A stretch of 64,000 bases of DNA, taken from positions 2,418,001 through 2,482,000 of the forward strand of contig CM073203.1 of the NCBI GenBank assembly GCA_037042915.1, given 5' to 3'. The notes beneath the pieces are model-generated. The model had not been told where the DNA came from and searched no databases. It worked only from the letters and a program-made list of their open reading frames with translations. Positions within the stretch are counted from its first letter, which is position 1. Every line of letters begins with the position of its first letter. Shown here in pieces: positions 1-59,781 of the stretch. Source of the stretch: Auricularia sp. M13 (taxonomy: Eukaryota; Basidiomycota; Agaricomycetes; Auriculariales; Auriculariaceae). Both the position numbers and the translations under genes were made by a program.

Positions 1-776
1 TATTACTATTATCGTTCGGCGAGGTTACTTCTATGGGAGACGTCGGATCGGAAGAAGGGGATGAGGAGGACAAGGAAGGGGAAGACGTCCCTGACGCATT
101 AGGTCCTGTTGTATCTGGCGATGGTGTCTGTTCGTCTGGCACAGTTGAATGAGCGGGAGGGGTTTCGGTGCTGCTGGGTGGGTTAGGGGTCCGCGTACTC
201 GGCGGGTCCTGAGGGCTAGGCGTTGGCTTTGGCGTGCTGAGGTGGTTCCGTCAACGATTAGGCGGCGTTGCCACAGCGAAAGCAGAGCCGCGTACTTTGA
301 ACTCGGAGGCGGCGGTACTGTAGTGTCCGGATTGTCCACCTGGGTGCGTTTGAGCTCTCGAAGTTCGTGGCGATTACATTGCAAATGGAACATACCAGAG
401 CCGCACATCTGGTGTTCCATGCGTCGATGGCGCCCGCCGCACCACCGCCTCCCCCGCAGATCTTGTTAATGCAGTTGGGGACCGCGGTTTTCATCGACGC
501 CGTCGTACACATGCATTTCAGAGAGTTGATGTCGCATCCAGCTGTGGGAGGCGTCAGTCAAAAAGGCCACTCATGCTGGTCGTCGGAGCATACGCGTCGC
601 GTTAACCGTGATGCAGCGCCTGGTGCAGTCTGTAAAGGGCAAAGGCTGGTGAGTGGAGGCGTCCCTGGACCTGAGAATCCGCTAAACGACGCACCAGGCA
701 ACGACTGCGCGGCTGCACGACCCGCGAGCAGGAGAGCGACGGGAACCAAGGCGAGACCGAGCATCCCCCACCGCAC
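1..776 (-). CDS. CFEM-domain secreted/GPI-type protein (3' end cut by window edge)
   Basis: Extracellular cysteine-rich protein of the CFEM family, typical of fungal cell-surface proteins. Translation starts at 776 with a clear signal peptide (residues 1-24, hydrophobic core ALVPVALLLAG, then AAAQ). Introns inferred by eye: 694-630, 593-542, 395-340 and 295-237. Spliced, the mature start is SLPDCTRRC and the full eight-cysteine CFEM pattern appears (CxxxC, then C, CxC, CxxxxC and a final C in NTRC). Most of these cysteines lie on different exons, so no single reading frame shows the domain. After the domain comes a long Pro/Ser/Thr linker (TPKPTPSPQDPP and onward) that runs off the left edge. 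Such linkers usually lead to a GPI-anchor signal, which is not visible here. CFEM proteins bind haem in some yeasts; that role is only a possibility. Confident of family, not of function. Confidence 0.85.
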
Positions 777-1410
777 CCAGGCTGGCTAAGATGAAAGAAA
801 GAGGAAGAGGGCGGCGAATCAAGAAACCCAAGCACGCATGCCGTGTACAGTATGGGCGCCCACAGCCTGATCTCCACCCTACGCCCGACGGATATGCGCC
901 CGCGCGCAAGGCACCAGAACACGTCAAAGGATCCACATGTGATGACAGCTGCCACTCGTCGGTGTCACAGCGCGCGTCTCCGGTCCGGGATACCATAGTT
1001 AGTGAGCAGCTCACCGAGCTGAGGTGTGCTGTTGAAGATAGGCTCAGTCATTCGGCAGTCTGCAGTATCCTCTGGTCTGAGCTTCTGAGCAACGTCAACG
1101 GGAAGGATGAGCGGAAGAAGCCGCTGCAACTAAGAGCACAGCACGGATCGACCAGGGAACAGCAAGCCTCGTTGCATACTGCACAGCTTTTAACGAGATC
1201 TGCTCGCAGTTCGCCAATGCAAGCAGGGATCCCTCAACTACTTCCTTCTTGCTTGGAATCGCCACTTCCGCGCACTCCGCATCGCCCAGAAGCTCTAGTC
1301 AATCAGCGATCACGCACAGGAAGGATTGGTAGCAAAGTGTATAAGTTAAAATAACAAGAGGCTCAGATGGGTATCAGAGCGGGAGAAAAACAGATTATTC
1401 TTTCTTCGTT
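777..1410. other. Intergenic, divergent/convergent spacer
   Basis: Lies upstream of the CFEM gene and downstream of the GH18 gene. A 187-aa open frame crosses it on the plus strand, but it is basic, low in hydrophobic residues and matches nothing I recognise, so I treat it as chance. No RNA gene or repeat seen. Confidence 0.5.
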
Positions 1411-2679
1411 TTATGCACCCTTGACAGCGGAGACCCAGTCCTTGCCGGCGTGGTTCCACTGCCAGGTCATGGCGCCGCCGGTGAAGCCGTTCTTGCCAAC
1501 GTACTGCTTCAGGCACTCGCCGAGCGGGCCCGGGTCCATGAAGCCGTTGCTGGCGTCGGCCGTCGTCGCGGGCTTGCCGACCACGATCTTCGACCCATCG
1601 ACGCCGTTCGCGATCATCTCCATGACGGAGGTGCCTGGCCAGGCGTCGGCGGACTTCTCCATGAGGCCGGCACAGTCGGTGCTTCAGTCGCAGTCAGCAC
1701 CTTGCGGGGGAGTCTGGGACAAATGGATCACTTACTAGACGCCCTCGCCCTGGTTGTAGAACTGCATGTTGTACCAGTCGATGAGGTCGCCGACCGCCTG
1801 GTGTACCTTGAGGTAGCCTCCACCCTTCCACTTCTCGCCCGGCTGGAACCACGGTGCCAGCGGTGCGTGCTGCAAACATGGGTCAGACGCCGAGAATCGG
1901 TGCAGAAGACGAGGACCGACCGTGATGATGTACGGCGACGGCAGAGCGTCACGAAGCGCCTTCGTGAACGAGATCAGCCAGTCCTCAGCACCCGAGCCGT
2001 TGTTGAAGGCATCGAGGTCCTCGTAATCCTGTTTGAACGGGATGAGCGTTCCTGAGCTCCGCGATGCAAGGGAAGTGCACTTACGACATCGACACCGTCC
2101 ATGCCGTAGTCCTTGACCCACTGAGCGAGCGACTGGGCAGCACCAACCGGGTCGACGCCGCCGGTCGTAGGGAACTCGGTCGCGCCGAACGCGGAGATCA
2201 TGAGCTTCGCGCCGTTGGCGGTCATGCCGTCCTTCAGCTTTTGGCGAGTAGCAGCGTCCATCGACTCCCAGGACTGGGCGTTATCCGCGCGCTGCTTGCT
2301 CATCCAGAAAGCAAGGTAACTAAAATAGTGGGTCAGAGCGTGCCCCAGTATCGCTTCCTGCAGGGAGTGGAACGTACAAGCCAGTGTAGCCGTCGATGTC
2401 AGCGGCGGTCGGGAAGTTCTGGTCCGAAAGCCAAGCATCGGCGTAGACGGTGTACTGAGCACCCGAGGTGCTTCCTCCACCGCTGGGTGGCGGAGGAGCC
2501 GGGTCGCTCGGAGCAGGATCGCTTGGAGCGGGGTCACTCGGAGCTGGGGCGGGGGTGGTCGTGGGCGGTGCGGGGGCACACTGGCGGCGCGCGACTGGAG
2601 CCGTGACGTTTGTCGGGAGGGCCGACACAGCGCTCAATGCAGAGAGCGCAAGAGCGAAAGCAGCTGCCGAAGTCTTCAT
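1411..2679 (-). CDS. Secreted glycoside hydrolase family 18 (chitinase-like) protein
   Basis: Chitin- or chito-oligosaccharide-type hydrolase, secreted. Five exons (2679-2378, 2319-2085, 2028-1921, 1869-1736, 1681-1411) sum to 1050 nt, 349 aa, with all junctions in phase. Residues 1-20 form a signal peptide (MKTSAAAFALALSALSAVSA). A Pro-rich linker with four PAPSDPAP-like units follows, then the barrel domain beginning around QYTVYADAW. The catalytic GH18 signature DGVDVDYE (DxxDxDxE, the last E being the acid/base) is created exactly at the second splice junction. Other family landmarks are YIITHAPLAPWF and WYNMQFYNQG. The domain is at the N-terminal side of a short protein, and no carbohydrate-binding module is visible. 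A TATA-like TATAAAA sits about 100 bp upstream on the minus strand (near 2780). Substrate (chitin versus peptidoglycan-like glycans) cannot be told from sequence. Confidence 0.92.
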
Positions 2680-3032
2680 CGTGAAAGAAGAAATAAACGA
2701 ATAAAAGAAGAAAGAATAAGAACGAAAGAAAAAAGCGCGGGGTAGAAGTGAGGACGTACCGTAGGATCATGTTGCCGCTTTTATACGGATGGTCGCTGCG
2801 GTGTCGCCTGACAACGGGCGCTCCAACTTCGCGTGGCGCCCGCAGAGCTGTGCTGTTCCAATTTGAGATTGTTCCGAGTCGGGCATTGCACCGGTACCTG
2901 CTCAAATGCCCTTCAAGTTGTGACTGGTGAAGGAAACTTGAGGAAGGAGGTCTCAAGAACAGCCGCAGAATGAACTGTCATAAGGCAAGACGACCAAGAG
3001 ATATCACGATGAGCACCGTAAGAGTCGGCGAG

Positions 3033-3167
3033 GCCGTGCCAAGGGGCCCGCACGATTTGGATCCGTGATATCGTCTGGGGGAGGGGGTCGTGGGAAATGA
3101 TCTGGCGTCTACCGGCATCCCGGCAGATGCGATGTCGGTCGATGGCTCGGACTGCCACCGAGCTGCG
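3033..3167 (+). repeat. Left TIR (3039-3167) with target duplication GCCGTG (3033-3038)
   Basis: Begins CCAAGGGGCCCGCACGATTT and is the reverse complement of 7885-8013. It includes a G-rich run and ends at GAGCTGCG. Confidence 0.88.
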
Positions 3168-3172
3168 GTCTT

Positions 3173-3219
3173 ATTGCAGCCGTCTCAAACGCTCACTGAG
3201 CGTTTGAGACGGGTGCAAT
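3173..3219. repeat. Near-perfect 23-bp palindrome just inside the left TIR
   Basis: Two 23-bp arms (3173-3195 and 3197-3219) around a single-base centre; the inner 16 bp (CCGTCTCAAACGCTCA and its complement) are perfect and only one outer pair mismatches. It is 5 bp inside the TIR and about 70 bp downstream of the transposase stop. It could form a hairpin or cruciform; a role in 3'-end formation or transposition is a guess. Confidence 0.8.
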
Positions 3220-3289
3220 TGAAAATGCGCGATTTCTCGAACAGTCCGTGCAGGTGAATTCAAGCAAAGTACACAAGTGAATGCTATTA

Positions 3290-6200
3290 CTAGGCTGCAG
3301 ACTGGGACGCTAGTTTAGTTTTATACTCTTCAATGGCATCCGAGTCAGGCAAGCGAGCAACTTCACGATGTCGTTGCGTCTGCTCCTTCGAAATCCCGAG
3401 TCTCAACGACTCTTCCGAGCTAACGTGAGTGTCTACTAGTAAGCGCATGATGTGAGCTGGCTCGTAGTCGGCGTCATCGCTGTGAGCAGCGGCGCAATGG
3501 AAGAGTGCATTGTACTTCCAAATTGTACGGAGCTGCCCCGATTTCGATGGCGCGCACAGTGCACAGTGAATTGGAACATTGCTTGATTTGCTTGTATCCG
3601 TGGATTCTGCCGCTTTCTTGTAGTTCATGTTCTCGTAGTGATATTCGCAGCTCGATGAGATTTGAAACTGGTTCTTCCGGCGCCTGAGCATTGTAGTGCA
3701 AGCACCGAGGCCGCAAAAACCGCATGGATTGGCAGGGACTTGGTCCTGGGGAATGAATTAGTGCAGCAAATATTGATCTGACGTCAATCTTACGCATTGC
3801 GGATCAGGGACCTTTCTCAGTGCGCGAAGAAGGTGCTCGCCAACATGATCCCGCATCTTGGATAGCTTGAGATTAGCACGGCAGAGCTTACATGGCAGTA
3901 ATTCTTGCGCTTTGTGCTTCTTCTTTGGCTCAAGGTGCGGCGGCAACGACTGCACCTTGAAAATAACTTTGCCTGAACTGCGTGAGGAGAGCACAGCACT
4001 GTGAAATTGGGCGCACCATCTGCAGAACGCAAAGGCAGATCCTTCATGTTTTCAACGACGGGGAGGAGGAGAATGTTGGACATGATCTCCTCTGTTTCAG
4101 GGTTGAGCGCGTCCCAAGCGTCCTCACACGTCTGCAGCATGTCATCCTGTGAAAAGGACCATGTAGCGGTAGGTCCGACAGCTAAAATATAATCAGAGAA
4201 TACTACTTCGTTGCTCTAGGACGCACTTTCGGAATTCCGGACTACCTGGCTCAGCACCGGAGCCATGATAGACGTAATCGCGGCAGGTACCTCAAGGACA
4301 TAGCGCGCGTGCGAGATCTGCGTATCCATTTTGTCATCCAGCTGGAGATACTCTCCGGTCCAAGTCCACGTGCGTGGCTCCGCCTGCTCAAGACGGAGCA
4401 CTTGCCCGATCACCACCGTCTTGAGGTTCTTCGAGTTCTCCTCAAACTCATCGAGAGTGAGCGAGACACGCGCTTCACCCCATGACATGCGAAATGCTGA
4501 AATTTCGAGCAGGACCAGTGCGTAAGCTGTTCCGACGCGCGCAAGAAACGCAACAATGTCGCCAACTTTGACAGTAGACCCGTCGTCCATCTGCGTGCCG
4601 CCAAGAGCCACTACTTTTGAGTGGTGGAAATCTTGGAGAGAGCGCCCTGCTGCACGGAGCGGCCGGGTTGTGAGCTTCTTGTTGGACTCATCGGTAGAGA
4701 GTGTTGCAACATAGGCAGACTTGTAGAATGTCTTGCCCTCTGCATTCACGAATGTCGGAAAAACCTTCTGGTGAATTGTCTGCGATAGCTCCGGTGATGA
4801 CTCGTCAACGACCGTGTCGGGAAAGAAGTCGTCGATGTCAAATCCAGGTTCTACCATGGCCGCGTCGAGCTCGTCTGACGGATTGCGTGTATTTTCCGAA
4901 GCATCCGTTGCGTCGGCAGCTCTATCTGTGGTCTGAGAGTGCGGCTGAACAGCACTGGTCGTGCGGTGACGGGGAGAGGCTCCTGCGCTGCTAGCCTCCG
5001 GTGCTGGCTCAGCCATTGGAATATGTAAGGACTCAGCTGGTTCCGCGCGTTCCGAGCGGTTCTCAAGCTGTTCATTATGCAGAGTACGCTCATCGACGCC
5101 GACATAGAGCCCAGCAGGACGGAGCACATCGTGATTAGGGCGAGAGAAACAAGCCTCGAAGTCGAAGTCTGGCCGTCCCGGGAAAGCCTTACGAAAGCGG
5201 GCAAGGGCTTTTTCGCGGCCAGTCGCCCACGCCCGCGCAAGGTCCACATTTCCGACGCACACATCTCCCTTCCAGGAGCGCGGGTTGAGATGGTCAATCC
5301 CGATCGTCTTCGACACATCGAGTCGGCGATGACCACGATCGAGATCAGGCCTCCGCTGAAATATGGCCTGGATGAGACACGCAATGGCAAGCTTGCTCGA
5401 GAGCTGAGAAATGTCGAAGTTGCGTGCGTGATCGAGAGTGCGGACCTCTGAGAAAACCTGCTCCAGTCGATCTGTCCCCTCGAGCAGTAGCCAGAAGCAG
5501 AGCGTCGGGTCAAGGAGCTGGAGGCGAGCAACAATCGTAAAGATGTTCTTCACAATTGCCTGTGTGTCGTAGTAAAGTGCGCCGGTCATGCAGGTGTTAC
5601 CGTGTGCATCGTACAAAATGACCGCAGCATGTGCAAATGCCGCCAGTGACTCCAGTTGCTGCTGTAAGTTCATCTCAACGTCGATAAATGGGCAGACGAA
5701 GAACCAAAGAATGTCCGAAAAAAACTGGACAGAAGAGCGCCGCTTTGATTCGGCAGGCGAAGAGACTAAGGCGGGGGCGTTGTTCAGCTGCTGGAGCGAC
5801 TGCATTAGACTAACGGCCTTGGGCACGTTCTGCTTGTCTGCAGGGTCCAGTAAGTTGCGCGCGGTCAGGTACTCCATTGCTGTGAATACCCGGAGAACCA
5901 TAATGACGTCGTGCGGGCGGATATTCGTACCATAGAGCATGATGCCCTCGGAACTCCGCAGGAGGGTGGCAAAGCGCTTGAACACATGCTTCGGATCGCA
6001 CGTCGTTGTCATCCCTCCGTCCGCGGACATGTAGCGATTGAAGCCACGCAGCGGAGCCAGCTTCTGTCCGAGCGGTGTGAGAGGTGAGATCTCGGCGACA
6101 ACGCAAAGAGCGTGCTTTGCGCGGCGATACGTTGCATCGCCGTCGCTGCCGAGAGACCAGATGGGGCCGTTCAACATGCGTCCATACTGATGCAGATTCC

Positions 6201-7754
6201 AGGACTCCACAACAGTCGTAAGCCAAGCCTGAAGCTGCTCGGCCTTCTCCTTTTTATTGGAAGGGGACGAAACGAGCGGGACCGGCGTGTAATGCTCGCG
6301 TTGCGAATAGGGCGCAATGGCGACAATAGTGGCCTCAGTGCCGAAGGCAACTGTTTTCGCATGTAAAGCACGTCTAATCGTCTCGATATTCTCAACGGAA
6401 GTCGCCCGAGTGTCCAGACTGCCGATAGTCTCGCGAGCCAGGCCAAGAACCTGGTCGCGGTCTTGATCGTAACGTGCGCGTGTCTCAAGCGCCACTCCAT
6501 CGAACATGAGTATATTTCCAGCGTGAGAGCGGCTGCGGCTGGACGGAACCGGTGGAGGGCGAAATTCTGGGTCAAAAAACGCGGCGATATTGTGCAGAAC
6601 ATCGTCACGAAGAGGTATCGCGACGGAAGCACGCATCCGCGGAATCTTCGCACGACGCTCGAGCGTGCGCTTCGAGAGGAGCCCAAGTCCCTTGCACATT
6701 GCAAAGTGCATCCTCTCACCACCAGCGTAGGCCGACAAGAGCGAGATGTCGCGGAACCGTTCATCAGAGACGTGCGGGTGATACTGTCCGTCGGCTGCCA
6801 GTTTCAGAACAGAGAGAACTCGAGCCGGGGTTGATTCAGTGCGGAGTGATGCAGCAATGACCCAGCGCACGCGCTGGATATCGTTCTTGGAGAGAAACAA
6901 CAGAACGCGTTCATGATCCCGCACGCGATTCTGCGCATTGCGGTGACGCCGGCGCAGGGACTGGACCTGCGTAAAACACAAGTGAGTTACCAAGCAAAGG
7001 GCATTCATGTGCACTCACCTTGGATCGTAATTTCTTCTTTTCTGCAACGTGATAGTGCGTGACGGCAGCAAGCTGACTGTGTGTAAGCTTGTAATATGGG
7101 GTGTTCAGCGGTGCATCTGCACGAGCGCGTTCCAGCATGTGAAGAAAAGCGCCAGAGCCAATGACTTTGAGACACTCCACACAGGCCTCAGTGGCGGTCG
7201 TCGTCTGCTGGCGGCACTTCTCTGAGCGGAAGTAGATTCTGTTCAGACGTGTATTATAGCCACACGGCAGCCAGCCCAGGGAATCATCGATGTGCTCCTG
7301 GAACGGGTACGTGTTCCAGAACGAGCCCCAAGTCCAGACATAGTAAGCACCCGGGCAAGAGTAGTACACCGGACGCCTCGGGGTGGACGGAACCGCGGGG
7401 AGACTATGAGAGACTACAGGTGTTGTGAACTATGAGACGGATAATTTAGCCTAAACACCTTCCATTTGAATGTAATTAAATCACCTTTCTCTGCTCAGCT
7501 ACGCGCTTGTTACAATTTCTAGACTTGCGGTGCGTCAACATATTATCTGCAACCGCCGTCGGGCCCGAGTTGACCTCAAATCCGCAGAGATCACAGACAA
7601 AGAAGTGATAGCCAGTATTCTCGTCGTATTTGGACCACAGCTCGAGGTCAGAGGTCACACGGATTGCACGTGAGCTGGAGCTCCGCGCATGGAAGACACC
7701 GCTGGGAGGAGGTACAGCCAAAAGCTGTACGGTATTCGGCAGAGCACTAGACAT
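3290..7754 (-). CDS. Transposase-like protein: N-terminal zinc finger, RNase H-like core, C-terminal zinc knuckles
   Basis: Six exons (7754-7485, 7429-7019, 6966-4227, 4181-4017, 3972-3794, 3745-3290) sum to 4221 nt, 1406 aa, all phases consistent. N-terminal Cys/His finger: FVCDLCGFEVNSG, then THRKSRNCNK. The core in the 2.7-kb exon carries candidate acidic residues in GNILMFDGVALE, LGSDGDATYRR and CDPKHVFKR, a set reminiscent of the D, D and D-x-x-H-x-x-K-R blocks of P-type transposases. GHRRLDVSK and DHLNPRSWKGD are further conserved-looking blocks. A disordered acidic/Ser-rich stretch follows. The C-terminal end has three Cys/His clusters: LPCKLCRANL with DHVGEHLL, NPCGFCGLGAC, and VPIHCALC with WKYN and HCAAAH. 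The start at MSSALPNTV is the first in-frame Met just inside the right TIR. Nuclear DNA recombinase role is inferred from TIRs and domain layout, not from a known homologue. Confidence 0.82.
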
Positions 7755-7884
7755 TGCGCCGGTAGAGCACTCGATGGGACGGTGAGTGTAGCAGTACAAG
7801 GAGCGTAGCTTATCGATCCAGCACAATGCGCGTGCGCTCGCATGCGCTGGCAAGCGGGCCGCACCCGCACTCACGTGCAGAAAG

Positions 7885-8019
7885 CGCAGCTCGGTAGCAG
7901 TCCGAGCCATCGACCGACATCGCATCTGCCGGGATGCCGGTAGACGCCAGATCATTTCCACGACCCCCCTCCCCCAGACGATATCACGGATCCAAATCGT
8001 GCGGGCCCCTTGGGCCGTG
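7885..8019 (-). repeat. Right TIR (7885-8013) with target duplication GCCGTG (8014-8019)
   Basis: Reverse complement of the left TIR over 129 bp. It lies just upstream of the transposase start at 7754, so it probably contains or abuts the promoter. Confidence 0.88.
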
Positions 8020-10455
8020 CGGGCAGTTGCGGTGCATGACGAACAACGATCATGATTCTGAGCATTCGTTGGTCTGCTGGCTGTGTGTGCTAAGAATACA
8101 CGTTGGGCTTTCCGATCGCCAGATGGGTGTCGGGTGCGAGGGTGCCATGTTATAATACGAGTCCGGGGATGGAAGAATCCCAGTGACCAGGAACTCGATG
8201 ACGAGCAAGTACGCAGCTGGTTCAAGCACGCAGCGAATGTCTGGAATGTTTTTAGTCCGCAGTTGTGACGATTGACCGGAGCTGGATGACCAGGGAGGGA
8301 AGACACCGGTTCACGCTTTGGACTCCGCTTGCCCACTCTGCAACTTCTCGCTTACTGAGGAATTCTGCTGGGACTCTACCACCAACTGCCTTGCGTCAGT
8401 CAACACTTGTCCTTCAAAATTTCAGCAATTTTTGCCATTGCTTGTCGCGTAGCTCATCTGTTTGCGGTGCTATTCTGAGTGCGCGTCTCAGGCGGCCGGC
8501 GTTCAACGTTCAACATCCCTGCCCGCGCCGAACGTTTTTGGACCGCTTGGACCGCAAGAATAGATATTGAGCCTGTATAACTCGCCCACATTTTTTTCAT
8601 AACCATCATATCGTCGCCACTTCGGGATTGCATCGACCAGACACGTCTACGCGCCTTGCTTTCAACGCCCGTAGGTCTCTGTTTGACATCGAGGATCAGC
8701 AGTAACTACGATACGCAAGCCGATGAGCCGTCTAATGGGGACCGATGAGCGCGTCTACACCCCTATCTTGGTCAGGAATCTGTGAACTCGACTGGCCCGC
8801 TTAAGCTCATATTCGACGGCTACCGGTTGCACCTCGCCCTCCTAGATCACCAGATGTCCCTCCCAGCGCACGTTGGCGGTCCAGTCGGGCATTACGGGTA
8901 GCCCGAAAACGGTCTCAGTGGCCTCTTGGATACCCTATGCGAGACCTCTGCAGCTCTGTGTCCCAAAAAGTGCAAGTTGGCTATGAGGCTTGACAAAGTG
9001 TGATGAGTCCTGATAACAGGGTCAGCCGACCCCCTACCTGATCAAACAGCTTCAGGGGGTATACTCGCCTACAGGCCTATTATAGGGCTGACAAGGCCAA
9101 TACACTTCATAATGTGGAAAAGGGCCGATAAGAGCTGATCAGCGGCCCCGCCCAATATTATGAAAACACCCCCAGCTGCCGCTCGTATGCGGCAGCTGGT
9201 CTTACTTTATGTTACTACATATGTACACTTACTACTTACTCGTATTACTACCCTGTATACATACACTGATCTTACTCCAGTTGTACTTTCCGACTTGACC
9301 TGATTCGAACCGAGGGCTCGCCTGCAGGCCACACGTGCCCTCGCGCAAGCTACCACCTAGCCTATTCTGCCAGTTGTCTATAACGGTGGAGCGAAGGATA
9401 CAAGCCTGCTCCACAGCTCCACTGGACATTCCGCTCCGATGACTGCGGCTCCCACGGCTCCCAAAGACTCGTAATTATGTTCTCATGGATGACTTAGTCT
9501 ACTAGCAGGTAGGGCTTGGGTTAAAATGTAGTGGGGGGACTTGCTGGTGATGAAGGTTTATCACCGCTTATAAGACCTTGTCACAGGCCGCAGTGCGCTG
9601 ATCGACACTTATCGCCATTATCACGCCGCACTGACGGCTTATCAGTACTTACCAAGGCCTACAAGTAATTAAGGCATCCTATAGGTGTGTATAGACAGTT
9701 ATCACAGAACATAGTGAGCTGATAAGAGCATAATCGCTGATCACCAGTTTGCGATTTTTGGGACATGTACGCGCTGTATCGCGCCGTTCTCGATATCTGG
9801 CTGGGCATTCACCGACTTGCGCGCACGAAGCTCCTTGAGCTCACCTCCGTCATCACCCTGATTATCTCGAGAGGACGGGGCGTCAGCGCGCCGGGCTCGA
9901 TTCGCTCGAATATTTCAATGAACTTGTTGCGATCTGCGCATCCCACGCGCGACGCCCTGTTCCATACTATGTATATCAGTTTCAGCCAACTAGGACTTCT
10001 GCTTCTCAAGCTTCACCGGAACCCTTTGCAAACACTTCATCGAAATCCGGTGAGGCGAGCGGGACCTGAGGCATCGAGCAGCTAGTCTACTATTAATCTG
10101 CTCATCCCTATCTCCATTCCAACATTGCGCGACCAGATGACAGAAAAACCAATGCAAAGAGACCCTGGAAAGAAACAGTGGATGTGATCTATGTGTTGTG
10201 ACGAGATTTCCGTCCAGCGACAGGAAGGAGGATGCAAAGTGTAATGCCGTCGTTCGTCGGGCCGACGTGTCGTAAAGTGCGTTGCAGCGTCGTGTGTGTG
10301 CGAGGAATGGGAGATGGGAGAGTGGGTGAGGTTGCAAGGAAAGATCATGCCAGATGCAAGGGGAATAAAATAGATAAACTAGAGCAAAGCAAGGGGCCAG
10401 TCGTGCGCGGCAGAGGGCAGAGTGAAGCGCAAATATCCAGCGCATGCGGAATTGT
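8014..10455. other. Gene-poor stretch between the transposon and the GH16 gene
   Basis: About 2.4 kb with no convincing open frame. The 8.0-8.6 kb part is ordinary GC; 8.6-9.8 kb is rich in stops and in short TTATCA/TGATAA words, looking like decayed repeat DNA. A tRNA-like SINE candidate lies near 9.2-9.4 kb. The 10.1-10.4 kb part is probably the 3' flank of GH16. Confidence 0.5.
9215..9375 (-). repeat. Candidate tRNA-derived SINE fragment
   Basis: On the minus strand a box-B-like GGTTCGAATCA (9301-9311) follows about 45 bp after a box-A-like GGTGGTAGCTTGCG (9343-9356), the spacing of an internal RNA polymerase III promoter. The 5-bp stem expected beside a true TPsiC loop does not pair, so it is not an intact tRNA gene. 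An AT-rich GTAGTAA/AAGTAAG tail follows. One copy only; weak evidence. Confidence 0.3.
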
Positions 10456-13755: not shown

Positions 13756-15076
<1,321 letters not shown>

Positions 15077-15866
15077 GCGACAATCTGGTTGTTCCGTCGA
15101 AAAGGCGTGCGTGTACCATAAGAATTTACCACCAACTCGAAAGATTCTGTGGGCGCTGAGCGGGGATGGCGGCCTGTGTGCGCTAGCATGGAAATAAGGT
15201 TGAGCGTTCTGACAGAACAGCCCGGTGGCAACTTCCGGAGCTCACGGTGGCTGGGCAGCCACCCAGTCAAATAACCGTGCACGTGCAAAATGTTTACAGT
15301 TGCTGAGAGCGCTGAGCCAAGACTCCGGACACCTCCTGCACGTGTTGGTCGTTGCTGCCAACCGTAGCTCTCAATAATGAGCCTTCGGCCGATGCTCTGG
15401 GAACACTCGTTAACACCATGTCGCAGCGCCTCAGAAGGGGGGATGGTGGGTGTTTCAACGCAATGGTGAGAAACCCCACGTCTTCAATTGCGGTTTGACG
15501 TTGTGGATCCCAGTGACAGTTATTGACTTCGGCGTGAGAGCGCATGGCAACTCAACGAGCAGATGTTCCCGCAAGGCTAAACAGACTCGTCAGCGGCCTT
15601 CGAAGGGAGCTAGGGTAAATAATCTGAGCAGATTAGCGTGGAAGCCGGGTGTAATGTCCCTTGAGTGCTATTGAGGAAGGACGCGCGAGCCTCCAGAACA
15701 CTCCAGTGAGCGCGGCGGAGAACGGCTCAATGGATCGTCGCACGTACTGCCACGATCAGCACTTCTTAAACGAGTTCGTCCAGTGCAAGGGAGTAACGAA
15801 GCGTGTGCACAAATTTATACGGTTGAAAGATGCAGGAACTATTATGGAATAAGCATCAAGCCGCGT
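15077..15866. other. Convergent intergenic region
   Basis: Between the 3' ends of THI4 and the methyltransferase. No convincing coding frame, RNA gene or repeat found. Confidence 0.5.
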
Positions 15867-16965
15867 TCAAACTTTGACGAGCGCGAGCTCGATCGCCTGA
15901 AGAGAGCCAGTTGACGGATACGTTGCTGTGTTGCTCATCTCCTCGCCAAATATGTCAGCGTCCACGAGCTCGTAGCGAGCGACCTGCCAACGTCCGTCTG
16001 ACTCTAGAGCGGTACGGACTAGAAGGTATTCAGGGTGACGCTCACAATGACAATTGCAACCCACTCACAGGCGTCGGAACCATCGAAACCCACGGGCACG
16101 GCGGTGTAGCTCCAAAGCTCCCCACCGTTCCTGAGCACGAGGTGTGCTTCGCTGATGAGGCGCAACGTGAGCTCGATTCCCGTGGGGCCACCGGCGGCGT
16201 AGACGCGGGCGTCGCCAGCAATGAAGGGCGGATGGATGGCGACGACGTCAAGAGGTGGCCCATCAAAGTTCGCGAGTCCGTCCGACAGTTTGAATTGCAC
16301 GGTGGGTGCGTTGAAACGGGCGACGGCGAGAGCTTTGGGATTGATGTCCACACCAAACACCTCTGCCTTGGGAAACAACCGCGAGAGATGCAGCGCGCCG
16401 ATGCCAGGCCCGGTGCAAAGATCGAGCACGCGGTACGGTAGGTGATGTTGCAGACGCAAGGCCGCGAGTGAGCTCAGGACTCGCATGTACCGGTAGGAGT
16501 CCGGTCCGAAGAAGATCGAGTCGGGCGCCACCGTCGGCCAAGAACCATGGACATAGAGGTCATGCCTCCGGCTGAGCGACAGGCTGGAGACGCGAATGGT
16601 GGGCATAAGAACACCGTTCTCGCGAATGAAGACCTTCGACTCGATCATCTCGGCGAGGAGCGCGGGTGGCATTAGATCAGTGCCGCTGGCAATGGCATTA
16701 GCTCACACCCGCGCTGCTTCGCGTAGACGCACGCGCATGCAGGTATACTCCAGCCGAAGATGTCTTGAAGCGTAGTGGCCACCAATGCCCCGCCTGCGAG
16801 ATGCTCGCGCTTGGCGATGACGCGTGCGTGTGTCTCCGGAGTTGGGCAGATGAAGGTGTAGGCTTTGGAGATGAGGAACGCGATGAGCTTCCCGTAGGCG
16901 ACGACGGGAGCCTTCTCGACGGTAGCACGCCGAGTGATGACTGTTTCGTTCGTCAGAGAGGGCAT
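15867..16965 (-). CDS. Class I SAM-dependent methyltransferase, small-domain/HemK-like
   Basis: Three exons (16965-16733, 16685-16069, 16018-15867) give 1002 nt, 333 aa. An N-terminal helical region (residues 1-120) precedes a Rossmann methyltransferase domain. SAM-binding motif I is RVLDLCTGPGIGALHLSRL, motif II is EVFGVDINPKALAVARFNA, and motif IV reads VVAIHPPFIAGD. HemK/PrmC and related N- or C-methyltransferases normally have NPPY/F at motif IV; here the Asn is His, so the substrate may differ. The C-terminal ELTLRLISEAHLVLRNGGEL is typical of the fold. No signal peptide or membrane helix is evident. Substrate unknown. Both splice junctions restore the frame and remove stops, so the model is firm even though the role is not. 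Confidence 0.85.
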
Positions 16966-55041: not shown

Positions 55042-58000
55042 CTAGTCGGATATCTCGATACAATCCACAGAGTCGTCCCACGCGGTTACCTTGCTATGAA
55101 CGGGGACCGGTTCCTCTACCCTCAGCGCTCTCACGCTTTCTGCCATCGTGCGTCTCCACTCGGTCATGTCTTCCTGAACCATGACGCTTGCTTCGTCGCT
55201 CGCGATGAGACTAACTGCATCGGCGGCGACGAAGGGGCCACAGTCCCAGCCGTTGTCCTGACGAGCCGCTCGCTTTTGCGCCACATGTTGAGAATTATAC
55301 AATGTAGCATTTAATAGAGGTACTCACCCTTTCCCGACCCATAGAAAGTCTGCGCCTCTCATACTCAGCCCGAAATGCTCGCTGCAGATGTCCACCAGAG
55401 CACGCACGCTCTTCGCAAGATCGTTCGCATATCCTTTGACGGCGGCATAGCTATCGTAGAAGTTGACTGTGCGCTCGACCCAGCGAAGTTCAAGCAGTGT
55501 CCAGTGCGCGGGATTTGCGACGTGTCCAAGCACGAGCCATTTCTTCGCTTCCACAGGATGTACGGCCTGGCGATCAAGTTCAGATGAAGTCATTGCATTC
55601 GGTTTTACACAATGCATCGCATACCTGTTGCAATGCTTGCACGATGTAACGTCGGTGGGACTCACTTTGCTCCGTGTTACCCGTGGCCAGTGCCTCCATG
55701 TAGCAGTTGACATCGAGTAGAGTTCTCGAGTGGATGATGGACACATCGTTGACCTTCGACTCCAGCAGCTTCTGCTGCAGAAACACGGCCAGGCCATCGC
55801 CGCTGAGCCATCCGTACGAGCGCGTGAAGCGGTCGAGATCCTCGCCATCGCAGGTGTACTCGCCCGCGCGATATACGATACGTGTCTTCGCGCGCTTCTT
55901 GCCCCGTGGACGCAGGGGCTCCTCTCTGTCTAAATCTGAACATGTCAATGGCGCGCTGCGCGCTAGAACACCCACTCACCTTGCCAAACTGTTGCCTCCA
56001 CTGACAACCCATCGCCAGCATGCCATGTCTGTCGCGCGGGATTCACTGACTGCGGGCGGATTTCCTTCTTCGAGTCGTCCCCGTCAGCACCTTCCTTCTG
56101 CATATCCTCGAGTTGTTGAGCGTTCGATTCCGGCATTTCCACATCCAGAGTCATGTCGACCATGAGCTCGTCCAGCGATTCGTTGCCGTCCTCCGGTTCC
56201 GGGTACGCGTCAGACGCGTCGTCCGAGTCGACGTCGTCAACCAGCGTGACCGGCGAGTCTTCTGCCATTTGAGCCGGTTCTGGGACTGACACGACGCCGG
56301 CGCCTGCTCGCTCCATAGCAGTGGTGAAGCGCAGACCGAGAGCACCGAGCGATAGGTCGCGCGTCCATGTCGCGCGCAGATCCTCGTGACAGGCAAGGCG
56401 CTCGTGGACGGCAGCTCGTAATATCGGGTCTAGCACAACTTCATGGTTAGTCTGGAAGCAACCTGAGGCGGCGGGCGTACCTAGCGTGCTGGTTGGCCCG
56501 ACGAGCTCTTCCATTGCCGACCTCGTCTCCACCCACCACGAGACGAGTCCAGCCATCTCCGCATCCAGACGCTCCATCTCTTCGCGACAGCGGTCCCACT
56601 GCTGAAGCGCCAGAATTCCCCGCTTAACGTTTTCATCGGTCAACCAGCGAGGCTGGTCGTCGTGTTCGCCCTGGGGTCCCAGGCCGACGTCCTCCTGCCA
56701 GATATCGTCGTCAACGTCCAATTTGAACAGTTTCTTCGCCTCCAGTTTACGCGGGAGAGGGGTGCGCGTGTCCGGCTTCTTGCCCTGCCGCGCAAGCAAC
56801 GCCATGTCGTCCACCAGTTTGTTGAACGCGCGGACCTGGTTGCCAATGCTGCGCTCGCGCCGATTGACAAGGTCTGTAACCTTCGCGTGCTCGCTCGCCT
56901 CTGGAACAAATTGTGCATTAGCCGGGAACGCGGACACAGACAAGAGCCACGCACGAAGGACCTGCTGCCCAAACCCGCGCTCCAGCTTACGATGCTCGAA
57001 TTTGTGATGTACGAGGGTATTCCGGATCGTCGCCCGCAGCGCGCGCGCCTTGACTCGCGCGCAGATGTACGCATTACCGCGCATAGACTCGAACCTCCTC
57101 GTACGTTCCGTGCCAAGCGTTGCGTGCAGTACTGCCATGCGGGACTCCGTAGCTTCGATTTCGCGTTGCGCGGATTCGATGGACGCGGACAGCGACTGCG
57201 TTTTAGACGAGGTGAGCGCGTGCACCTTGCGCAGCTGCCTCCTGTCATCGCGGATCTGCTGCCTGAGGTCGTCGACGAGCCCCATGAGCACTAGAATCTC
57301 GTCGATTATTTTGTCCGCAGCATTTGAGTCCTGCCCTGATGTCCAAAGAAATGCTCTGTCAGCGTCGTGCGGCGCACCATGCACATGCAACTTACGCGGT
57401 GGCTTCTTGAGCTGCGAATCAACCTGAGCCTTCCACTCGGCTCGAAGCTCCGGGATCGATACACCACAACCGTCGAGCGCCGCCTGAGATTCTGCCAACC
57501 TACGGACCGCTTCGCCGTGCTTGCGCCGTAGCCATACCCCAATTCTAAGCAGCGCGCTACTGCTCATGGCGTGTATCTGTCGATCCAGGATAAACAGCCG
57601 CCTGTAGAACTGGGCCTATGAGCACCGTGACAGATGTCTGCTCGTCAGACTTACCCCGGACACTCGCAGACTAGGTATCAGGTGGCGGATGGCGCTCCAG
57701 AAGCGTTCGCAGCCCTCGCCATCGCTGAGCCCGAAGCCGACGCGCTTCCGGGGGTGGAACACTATTTGGCACGCCCACTGGTGCCCGTATGCGTGGAACA
57801 CCGAGACCGCGTAGATAAAGCGATCCTCCAATTCGGGCAACAAGCCAAACTGTTCAGATTGGTTAGCGACTGCCCAGATCTGTGCCCACTGACGCCAACG
57901 CTGACCTTCTCGATGCTGCGGCCCAGCTGGCACGCGATATCGTACAGAAGGCCAATGAGCCAGTCCTTCGGCAAATGCTCCCCGAGACGACGCAACAACG

Positions 58001-59781
58001 CGAGAGCGTAGTGTTGTCGCTCTCCCGGTGTGCACATGTTGACGACCCACAAAACACGGTCGTGTCGGCAAAGTAGGGCCATTAGGCCCGTATCCGCGTA
58101 GTAATTCTTCGAGGCCTTCGTGACCTTCTCCTGGGCCGCGATGAACGATTGCTCGCATTCATTCAGAACGTCATCGGAGACGGCGGGCTCCCCGCGAGCA
58201 CGCCGACGCCTCGGGGGTGACTTCCGAAAGTACGCGAGCTCGGCCTCCATGGTGACGGTCTCGGCGGTGCCGAGAAACCGTGACGGTTCGTAATCGAGCG
58301 GCGGGTCTGCCTCTGCGCACTTGCGTCGTTTCTGAGCGAAGTTCGCGTCAAGGCAGACGATGACATTGGCCCTGTGAAGTGAAACTAGTTAGTACCGCAA
58401 AGCATAAGGCGATTTGCACAAAACGTACTTGGACAGAGTCAAGGCAGGCCGCGTCCCGCCAAAGCATAGCTGGCATTTATTTCGAAGCTCCACGGTGGGC
58501 CGCGTCAGCGGCTGGCCTGTGCCTGCCTCGGGCGGTGTCGATGCGTCCACGTCGGCGACTGGATTGCCGACGGCACGACTCGTTCCAGCCTGACCAGCGT
58601 TCCTGTCGGCGCCGTCTTCGTCAACGCGCACCTGGTTGATGTTGACGTCGGCGGCGGTCGCTTGACGTTCCTGGAGATCACGTCTCTGAGTTGACTCTGC
58701 AGGAAGACATTAGTAACGTTCTGTACGCAAAGACGTGTAGAATAAACGCACCCACGATTAGCGTCGAGACGCTCTGGTCCACGCGATTTTCCAACACTTG
58801 ATACCACGTCAGTGCCATGCCGAGACGCTTGCGCAGCCGTCCCTGCCCGTGGGTCAACATCGAGCAGCGAGAAAACGGGGCGCGAGCTGTGCGCGTACCC
58901 ATGTATTTCCGCCGGTCCCACGACGGGCCCAGAAGGCGTCCAGCGTCTCCGACCATGCCGTCACGTTCGGGGCAACGTGCAAGGAGTGGATAGATATCAT
59001 ATCCAGCAAGTCGAAGCTGAAGGCCAGTGACGGCGCCTTTGGAGCGCAGGGGAAGTAGCCGCTGCCGATCAACTGTTCTGCAGCGCCCCTACACGCGCAG
59101 ATCTCGAGGGACCCGTTCCTGACACCTGCGCATAGGGTCCGGTAAGCAGACGCGCAGACGACTGGCACGTACATACCAGACCAATCGACCCAGGAGATAG
59201 CGAGGCGCCGCCGATGTGCGCACGTGCAGACGCCCATGGGCGCCACGGGCTCGTGGTGTCGGAAGCCCATGTAGCGCACCAGTAGCGCCTCGTTGAGCAC
59301 AGTCCGCCAGTTGGCGTGCTGCGCGATTCGACGGCGCCGATGACGAGACGGGTTTGGCTCGAGCTGGCTGTTCACCGTGAAGTGGTGAATTTCGTCCCAC
59401 GAAGCCCCGATTTCGCCCCCTTCGTCGTCGTCTGATACATCGAAAGTTGTCGCAGGTCGGCGCGTCGAAGAAGAGAACAGGGCTCGCGAGCGGACTGCCC
59501 AGGTATCGCAGACGGCGGCAAGTTGGGCCGCTGGACCAGCCGTCGGCCACCAGGCAGTATGAGCGCTCCAGGAGCGCGCAGGCGCTTGGGTAGTTTCACT
59601 TCCCGGGCTGTCGGCGGCGCTTGGGCAGCTGCTCCTCGCGCATGAGCTGGAATTGCTCCAGATCGAGAGGCGGCGAAGGGTCCACAGCTACACCGTCCGC
59701 CACGGCCGTCGCGTACTGTGCTGCTGCAGCGCTGCGGCGCTTGCGCTTGGTGCCAGTGCCGGTACGGAAGCGCGAACTCAT
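55042..59781 (-). CDS. KDZ transposase with CxC1-like module and Ulp1-like cysteine protease
   Basis: Multi-exon gene; exon limits were not all solved, so only blocks are given. From the N-terminus: a basic start (MSSRFRTGTGTKRKRRS, 59781); a cysteine module CTCAHRR, SLEICACRGAAEQLIGSGYF, PCAPKAPSLAF (about 59.2-59.0 kb) like the CxC1 group; KCQLCFGGTRPAL (58.5 kb); then the KDZ RNase H-like core with candidate acids in VIVCLDANFAQKRR (58.34 kb), LLYDIACQLGRS (57.95 kb) and GLSDGEGCERFWS (57.7 kb); a 530-residue helical region (57.57-55.96 kb); and a C48/Ulp1-type protease with WLSGDGLAVFLQQKL, His in NPAHWTLLELR, Asp in NFYDSYA and Cys in DNGWDCGPFVA (55.4-55.1 kb). All expected catalytic residues are present and no obvious break was met, so it may be intact. 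Cut-and-paste role is known for the superfamily; the protease's job is unknown. Confidence 0.85.

Follow-up and report, generated by a model that had tools for sequence, protein, structure and literature searches.

Introduction

The Drosophila P element, a well-studied transposon, depends on GTP and has ends that read CA..TG. Its transposase (PDB 6p5a and 6pe2) combines a helix-turn-helix (HTH) with a ribonuclease H (RNase H) fold that is split by a helical insertion placed before the last catalytic helix. Here we describe a related element in the fungus Auricularia sp. M13, located at positions 3040–8012 of a 64,000-nt stretch of contig CM073203.1 (assembly GCA_037042915.1, positions 2,418,001 to 2,482,000; hereafter, the window). 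Four features (the fold as predicted, the catalytic residues, the similarity of sequence profiles and a target-site duplication of 8 bp) place it, very probably, in the P superfamily as an autonomous cut-and-paste DNA transposon whose 1406-amino-acid (aa) protein is the transposase and whose lineage, devoid of the THAP domain, has spread through Agaricomycetes.

Other described systems bracket this element. Zebrafish Pdre2/THAP9 makes an 8-bp duplication, has the same catalytic layout and ends in CATACC..GGTATG; unlike the window element, it carries a THAP domain and has 13-bp terminal inverted repeats (TIRs) with subterminal repeats. A 2011 paper reported P elements from rust fungi, calling them "previously unknown in any Dikarya" and describing 8-bp duplications for those of Melampsora (PMC3164196). 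These elements (Repbase P-1_PSt, P-1_MLP and P-2_MLP) likewise belong to the P superfamily, to Basidiomycota and to the 8-bp class. Among the KDZ elements (Zisupton/Dileera/Kyakuja), which share with the window element large zinc-domain transposases in basidiomycetes, Zisupton gives 8-bp duplications and two Kyakuja families give 7-bp duplications and have no TIRs (PMC12730594).

Termini and target-site duplications

The element and its immediate borders have the following features (window positions):
3040..8012, minus strand (transposase gene): complete autonomous P-superfamily-type DNA transposon as classified here, 4973 bp, ends CAAGGGG...CCCCTTG
3032..3039 and 8013..8020: left and right copies of the 8-bp target-site duplication, both GGCCGTGC
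3040..3167, plus strand: left TIR, about 128 bp
7885..8012, minus strand: right TIR, about 128 bp
3173..3219: subterminal palindrome just inside the left TIR, with 23-nt arms and a 1-nt loop

An earlier note on this DNA had described 129-bp TIRs differing at about two places and flanked by a 6-bp GCCGTG duplication. The arms are there (3039–3167 and 7885–8013, 129 nt each, 95% complementary without gaps), and the ends need adjusting: the element spans 3040–8012, and a gapped alignment of the arms from these two positions gives TIRs of about 128 bp that differ by a single substitution and by two 1-bp indels that compensate each other, in and near a G run. The duplication is 8 bp long. The 6-bp reading (GCCGTG, with CCAAGG ends) is the same window sequence shifted one base outward at either end, and it is possible only because the window target starts with G and finishes with C; the outer C/G that it counts into the element is target DNA, judging from the other copies.

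The TIR search of the genome recovered three full copies, each with its two ends, and a 53-bp remnant of one end; a protein search added twelve further loci, more divergent ones, and the copy counts are lower bounds. Fifteen stretches were retrieved, 14 with a full element, which together with the window makes 15 elements. There are thus at least 15 full-length related copies in the genome, at 14 independent loci because one of them (L008) lies within a segmentally duplicated version of the locus in the window. About ten families can be told apart among these copies by nucleotide similarity, and in the closest families the TIRs exceed 100 bp. The earlier note had proposed looking for further copies with the same termini, and CAAGGG does stand at both ends, as the beginning and as the inverted finish, in 15 of the 15 elements.

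An exact 8-bp duplication flanks the element at 12 of the 14 independent loci: GGCCGTGC, CGCCGACC, GCTTGAAC, GGCAAGGC, CGTCCACA, GGTTGATC, GGGATACT, GTGGAAAC, GTCATTAC, ATGAAGTT, GCTCTTGG and GTCCCATC. Eight of these twelve are compatible with either length; at the other four (L040, L043, L045 and L049) the 6-bp reading breaks the inverted repeat, as it also does at L009 and L039. Duplications of 6 bp with CCAAGGGG ends are therefore refuted by the other loci. At the nine most divergent loci we also scanned end pairs up to 3.5 kb from the core without requiring CAAGGG. The best 8-bp pair had CAAGGG at both ends in all nine, each locus held a single CAAGGG..CCCTTG pair flanked by an exact 8-bp duplication, and no such pair arose in 500 shuffles (3-base blocks) per locus, or 4500 in total. 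In the duplicated targets, G in the first place and C in the eighth are favoured (together 17 of 24 occurrences, p 1.5e-5).

The palindrome at 3173–3219 occurs on the left side of the element alone and is present in L008 and L009 too; among ten other elements tested, one (L046) has a palindrome with arms of at least 16 nt (16 nt, starting 220 bases from the left end). The lone 53-bp remnant of one element end (L010, G000:C1:5393254-5393306) is about 85% identical. Short non-autonomous copies of the window family were not found in the TIR search of the genome.

Transposase gene and predicted fold

The gene on the minus strand has six exons and five GT..AG introns of 44–55 nt, the splice sites having been picked under the guidance of homologues aligned by tblastn. 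The exons total 4221 nt, or 1406 residues and a stop, which agrees with the six-exon gene of 1407 codons drawn in the earlier note, and the L008 copy, spliced at these six exons too, encodes an identical protein. All structures of the element protein are predictions. Residues are numbered by the 932-aa open reading frame (ORF) that covers exon 3, and conservation is counted in rows of the window-family alignment:
7485..7754, minus: exon 1, with the start codon and an N-terminal C-x2-C...H...C zinc-finger-like cluster
7019..7429, minus: exon 2, with a conserved Cys cluster (CPG...H...C...CxxC)
4227..6966, minus: exon 3, with the transposase core, a low-confidence linker and a BAH-like module (932-aa ORF at 4216–7014)
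5350..6852, minus: P-transposase-like HTH, split RNase H and helical insertion domain (ORF residues 55–555)
6499..6501, minus: Asp codon, proposed first catalytic D (D172, strand β1; D in 78 of 79 rows with a residue)
6142..6144, minus: Asp codon, proposed second catalytic D (D291, just after β4; 80 of 80)
5986..5997, minus: D340-x2-H343, the P-superfamily [C/D](2)H motif after β5 (79 of 79 rows with a residue)
5461..5463, minus: Glu codon, proposed catalytic E (E518, in a helix; 80 of 80)
4240..4584, minus: β-barrel module, weakly BAH-like (about ORF residues 811–925)
4000..4181, minus: exon 4
3794..3955, minus: exon 5, with a C2H2-like zinc cluster (CKLC...H...H)
3290..3745, minus: exon 6, with additional Cys/His clusters and the stop codon

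The N-terminal finger, the C-terminal Cys/His clusters and the P-like acidic core that the earlier note had pointed out in this multi-zinc-finger transposase are all in the sequence. The ORF with the exon 5 cluster resembles Pfam zf_C2HC_14 (E 1.1e-4, 22.4 bits), below the family cut-off of 25.

Relationship to the P superfamily

The predicted structure has an HTH and an RNase H fold split by a helical insertion domain, and matches the P transposase strongly. It also presents the DDE triad of the superfamily, with D172 in β1, D291 just after β4 and E518 in the helix after the insertion; a profile comparison aligns the three with D230, D303 and E531 of the P transposase. A [C/D](2)H motif directly after β5 defines the P-superfamily core (PMC8230255), and here D340-x2-H343 follows a strand at residues 336–339. 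The 8-bp duplications at 12 of 14 independent loci are those of the superfamily as well.

Profile comparisons link the window family to animal P transposases through an intermediate. Of 120 animal P transposases gathered with a bait and listed, 49 were aligned to build a profile (A3). Against it, the window-family alignment (A1) matched over 406 columns (E 5.5e-5, probability 66), with both D residues, the DxxH motif and the E lined up. A more divergent relative, L049, matched the P profile by itself (E 1.1e-4). An alignment of L049 with 15 of its 18 protein-search matches (A5) matched the animal P profile over 380 columns (probability 98.2, E 6.2e-14) and A1 over 630 columns (E 1.7e-123). Because A5 matches both, the chain from the window family through the L049 family to animal P is firm at the level of sequence profiles.

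Several results weigh against this placement. The direct match of A1 to the P profile is modest (66% probable), and a rerun with the trimmed core kept only 96 columns at a probability of 33. The window core ORF alone reached E 1.3 against the P profile, and the best match of the A1 core profile among the 120 animal P proteins had E 0.0044. BLASTP gave nothing meaningful directly to a P transposase, and no P-type family of Pfam matched the window ORFs or 36 family members. Nor did the THAP domain of Pfam match the seven window ORFs or those 36 members; other Cys/His clusters occupy its N-terminal position. According to a 2006 paper (PMC1562414), all known P proteins carry THAP; animal P proteins have been described as always bearing it. 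The element would not, on its sequence, count as a P element in this strict animal sense. Of the published GTP-contact residues of the P transposase (K385, K400, V401, S409, F443, D444, N447 and D528; PMC7776569), the equivalents of V401 (V397, 79 of 80 rows) and D528 (D515, 80 of 80) are kept. Several others appear not to be conserved; no conserved Asp lies near D444 (D445 in 22 of 80), and the placement of the remaining contacts in the alignment is uncertain. Two loci (L009 and L039) are without a matching duplication, which perhaps reflects recombination between copies. The right flank of L009 opens with a 26-bp perfect palindrome (L009:7037-7062, GGCGAAAGCCGAATTCGGCTTTCGCC).

Compared with the Drosophila P element, the window element shares the HTH, split RNase H and helical insertion, the D/D/DxxH/E signature, the 8-bp duplication and the CA..TG ends. 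It differs in having no THAP domain, a longer protein (1406 versus 751 aa) and longer TIRs (about 128 versus 31 bp), in adding a linker, a BAH-like module and C-terminal zinc clusters, and in apparently keeping the published GTP contacts only partly.

Alternative classifications

The earlier note had proposed an undescribed superfamily defined by a 6-bp duplication and CCAAGGGG ends. Six identical bases do stand on either side of the window element, the core has no Pfam family in the window ORFs or the 36 family members, and the listed homologues, many of them from Agaricomycetes as the note had stated, carry no functional name. We nevertheless regard this proposal as very improbable. At 12 of 14 loci the duplicated target measures 8 bp, and four of these break the TIR when read as 6 bp; the structural match and indirect profile match to the P transposase are strong; the note's argument that the duplication fits neither P nor KDZ falls because the 6-bp length was wrong. 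The predicted fold, the catalytic signature, the profile matches and the duplication point instead to the P superfamily, a clear match to a superfamily already named, which the note had itself listed as an outcome that would overturn its proposal.

Still less probable is membership in KDZ, whose large zinc-finger transposons are common in these fungi. Zinc domains are common to both, Zisupton makes 8-bp duplications, and Cryptococcus KDZ1 has 241-bp TIRs and 8-bp duplications (PMC12810828). Duplication length alone is indecisive because KDZ elements also have 8-bp duplications and zinc domains, and the 8 bp seen here falls within the 7 or 8 bp of KDZ elements without discriminating. The Pfam KDZ model (PF18758) matches the genome 149 times (150 of 163 candidates scored) but never inside the 15 elements, it matches none of the 36 family members, and the element has the P signature and fold. 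The A1 profile showed no similarity to a KDZ fragment of the window (E 0.34), a weak single-sequence test, and the fold search had no KDZ entry among the PDB rows shown, so that KDZ was not weighed directly there. At window positions 57652–58367 on the minus strand there are two KDZ-model matches, apparently one fragmentary KDZ transposase gene.

That the gene is a transposon-derived host gene, no longer mobile, is barely credible: the gene is intact, its changes are mostly silent and the window and L008 copies have common flanks, hence are one insertion, but an element-exact copy (99.4%, L009) is found on a different contig with flanks unrelated to these, and the genome contains about ten families whose ends match. 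Kolobok, whose target is TTAA, does not fit, as none of the 12 duplications contains TTAA.

Mobility and probable selection

The L009 element, on another contig, is 99.4% identical to the window element from end to end, in unrelated flanks. The complete, recently mobile DNA transposon of the earlier note is borne out. Between the window and L009 genes there are 18 exonic substitutions, of which 12 are silent (24% expected under uniform mutation), with no exon indels and with GT..AG kept in all five introns. Gene intactness was examined in the window, L008 and L009; some other copies have stops inside the matched core. Because the window gene is intact and its 99.4% relative on another contig is intact too, with mostly silent changes, the window family would appear to have moved recently and to have been selected for function.

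The L047 element is inserted within a short repeat that has TAGGGTG ends. Beside the L042 element (L042:8505-9019) stands a relative of this repeat with no interruption; the joined flanks align with it over the full length at 85%, loosely at the junction, which supports insertion of the L047 element. The target repeat (L047:1006-7697), with its own 8-bp duplication TGCCAGCG, is probably hAT-like judging by its ends.

Three tested stretches of the window (1–700, 777–9785 and 14000–16000) have an inverted duplicate, 98–99% identical, near the end of the same contig (G000:C11:15497-31776), so that the window copy and L008, two among the three closest, are one insertion. The duplicate may be genuine or may have arisen in assembly.

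Discussion

The element is a distinct fungal branch of the known P superfamily, not a new superfamily, and has zinc fingers where P elements usually have another DNA-binding domain. Its nearest homologues, among the matches listed, are in Auricularia and Exidia, and we take the named homologues of the window protein to be Agaricomycetes. No rust protein is named among the homologues listed for the window protein or L049. An open-access literature search of partial coverage found no report of P elements in mushroom-class fungi, the rust paper being the only fungal P report met, and the mushroom-class elements cannot be said to be unpublished.

In the mechanism that we propose, the N-terminal zinc clusters, and possibly the C-terminal ones, would bind the long TIRs, and the HTH, whose similarity is observed, may help hold the element ends. 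The split RNase H with D172, D291 and E518 and the helical insertion, in the Drosophila P layout, would then cut the ends and join them to the target with an 8-bp stagger; the fold and residues of this step come from prediction and conservation, and the chemistry would follow by analogy. Such a stagger would leave the observed 8-bp duplications, which show a preference for G as first base and C as eighth. More speculatively, and with considerable doubt, the element could represent a deep, separate THAP-less P branch in which its own zinc clusters read the long TIRs, the BAH-like module chooses the target chromatin and the GTP cofactor characteristic of animal P transposition has maybe been dispensed with.

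One fungal genome thus contains about ten families of a P lineage that has zinc fingers and no THAP, complete with termini and duplications and, for the family studied in detail, with intact genes. This points to the catalytic machinery and the 8-bp cut as the stable core of the system and to the DNA-reading parts as exchangeable. It also offers a likely function for a large group of Agaricomycete "hypothetical proteins" with a core unmatched by the Pfam models used here, and the repeat annotation of Agaricomycete genomes could be corrected accordingly.

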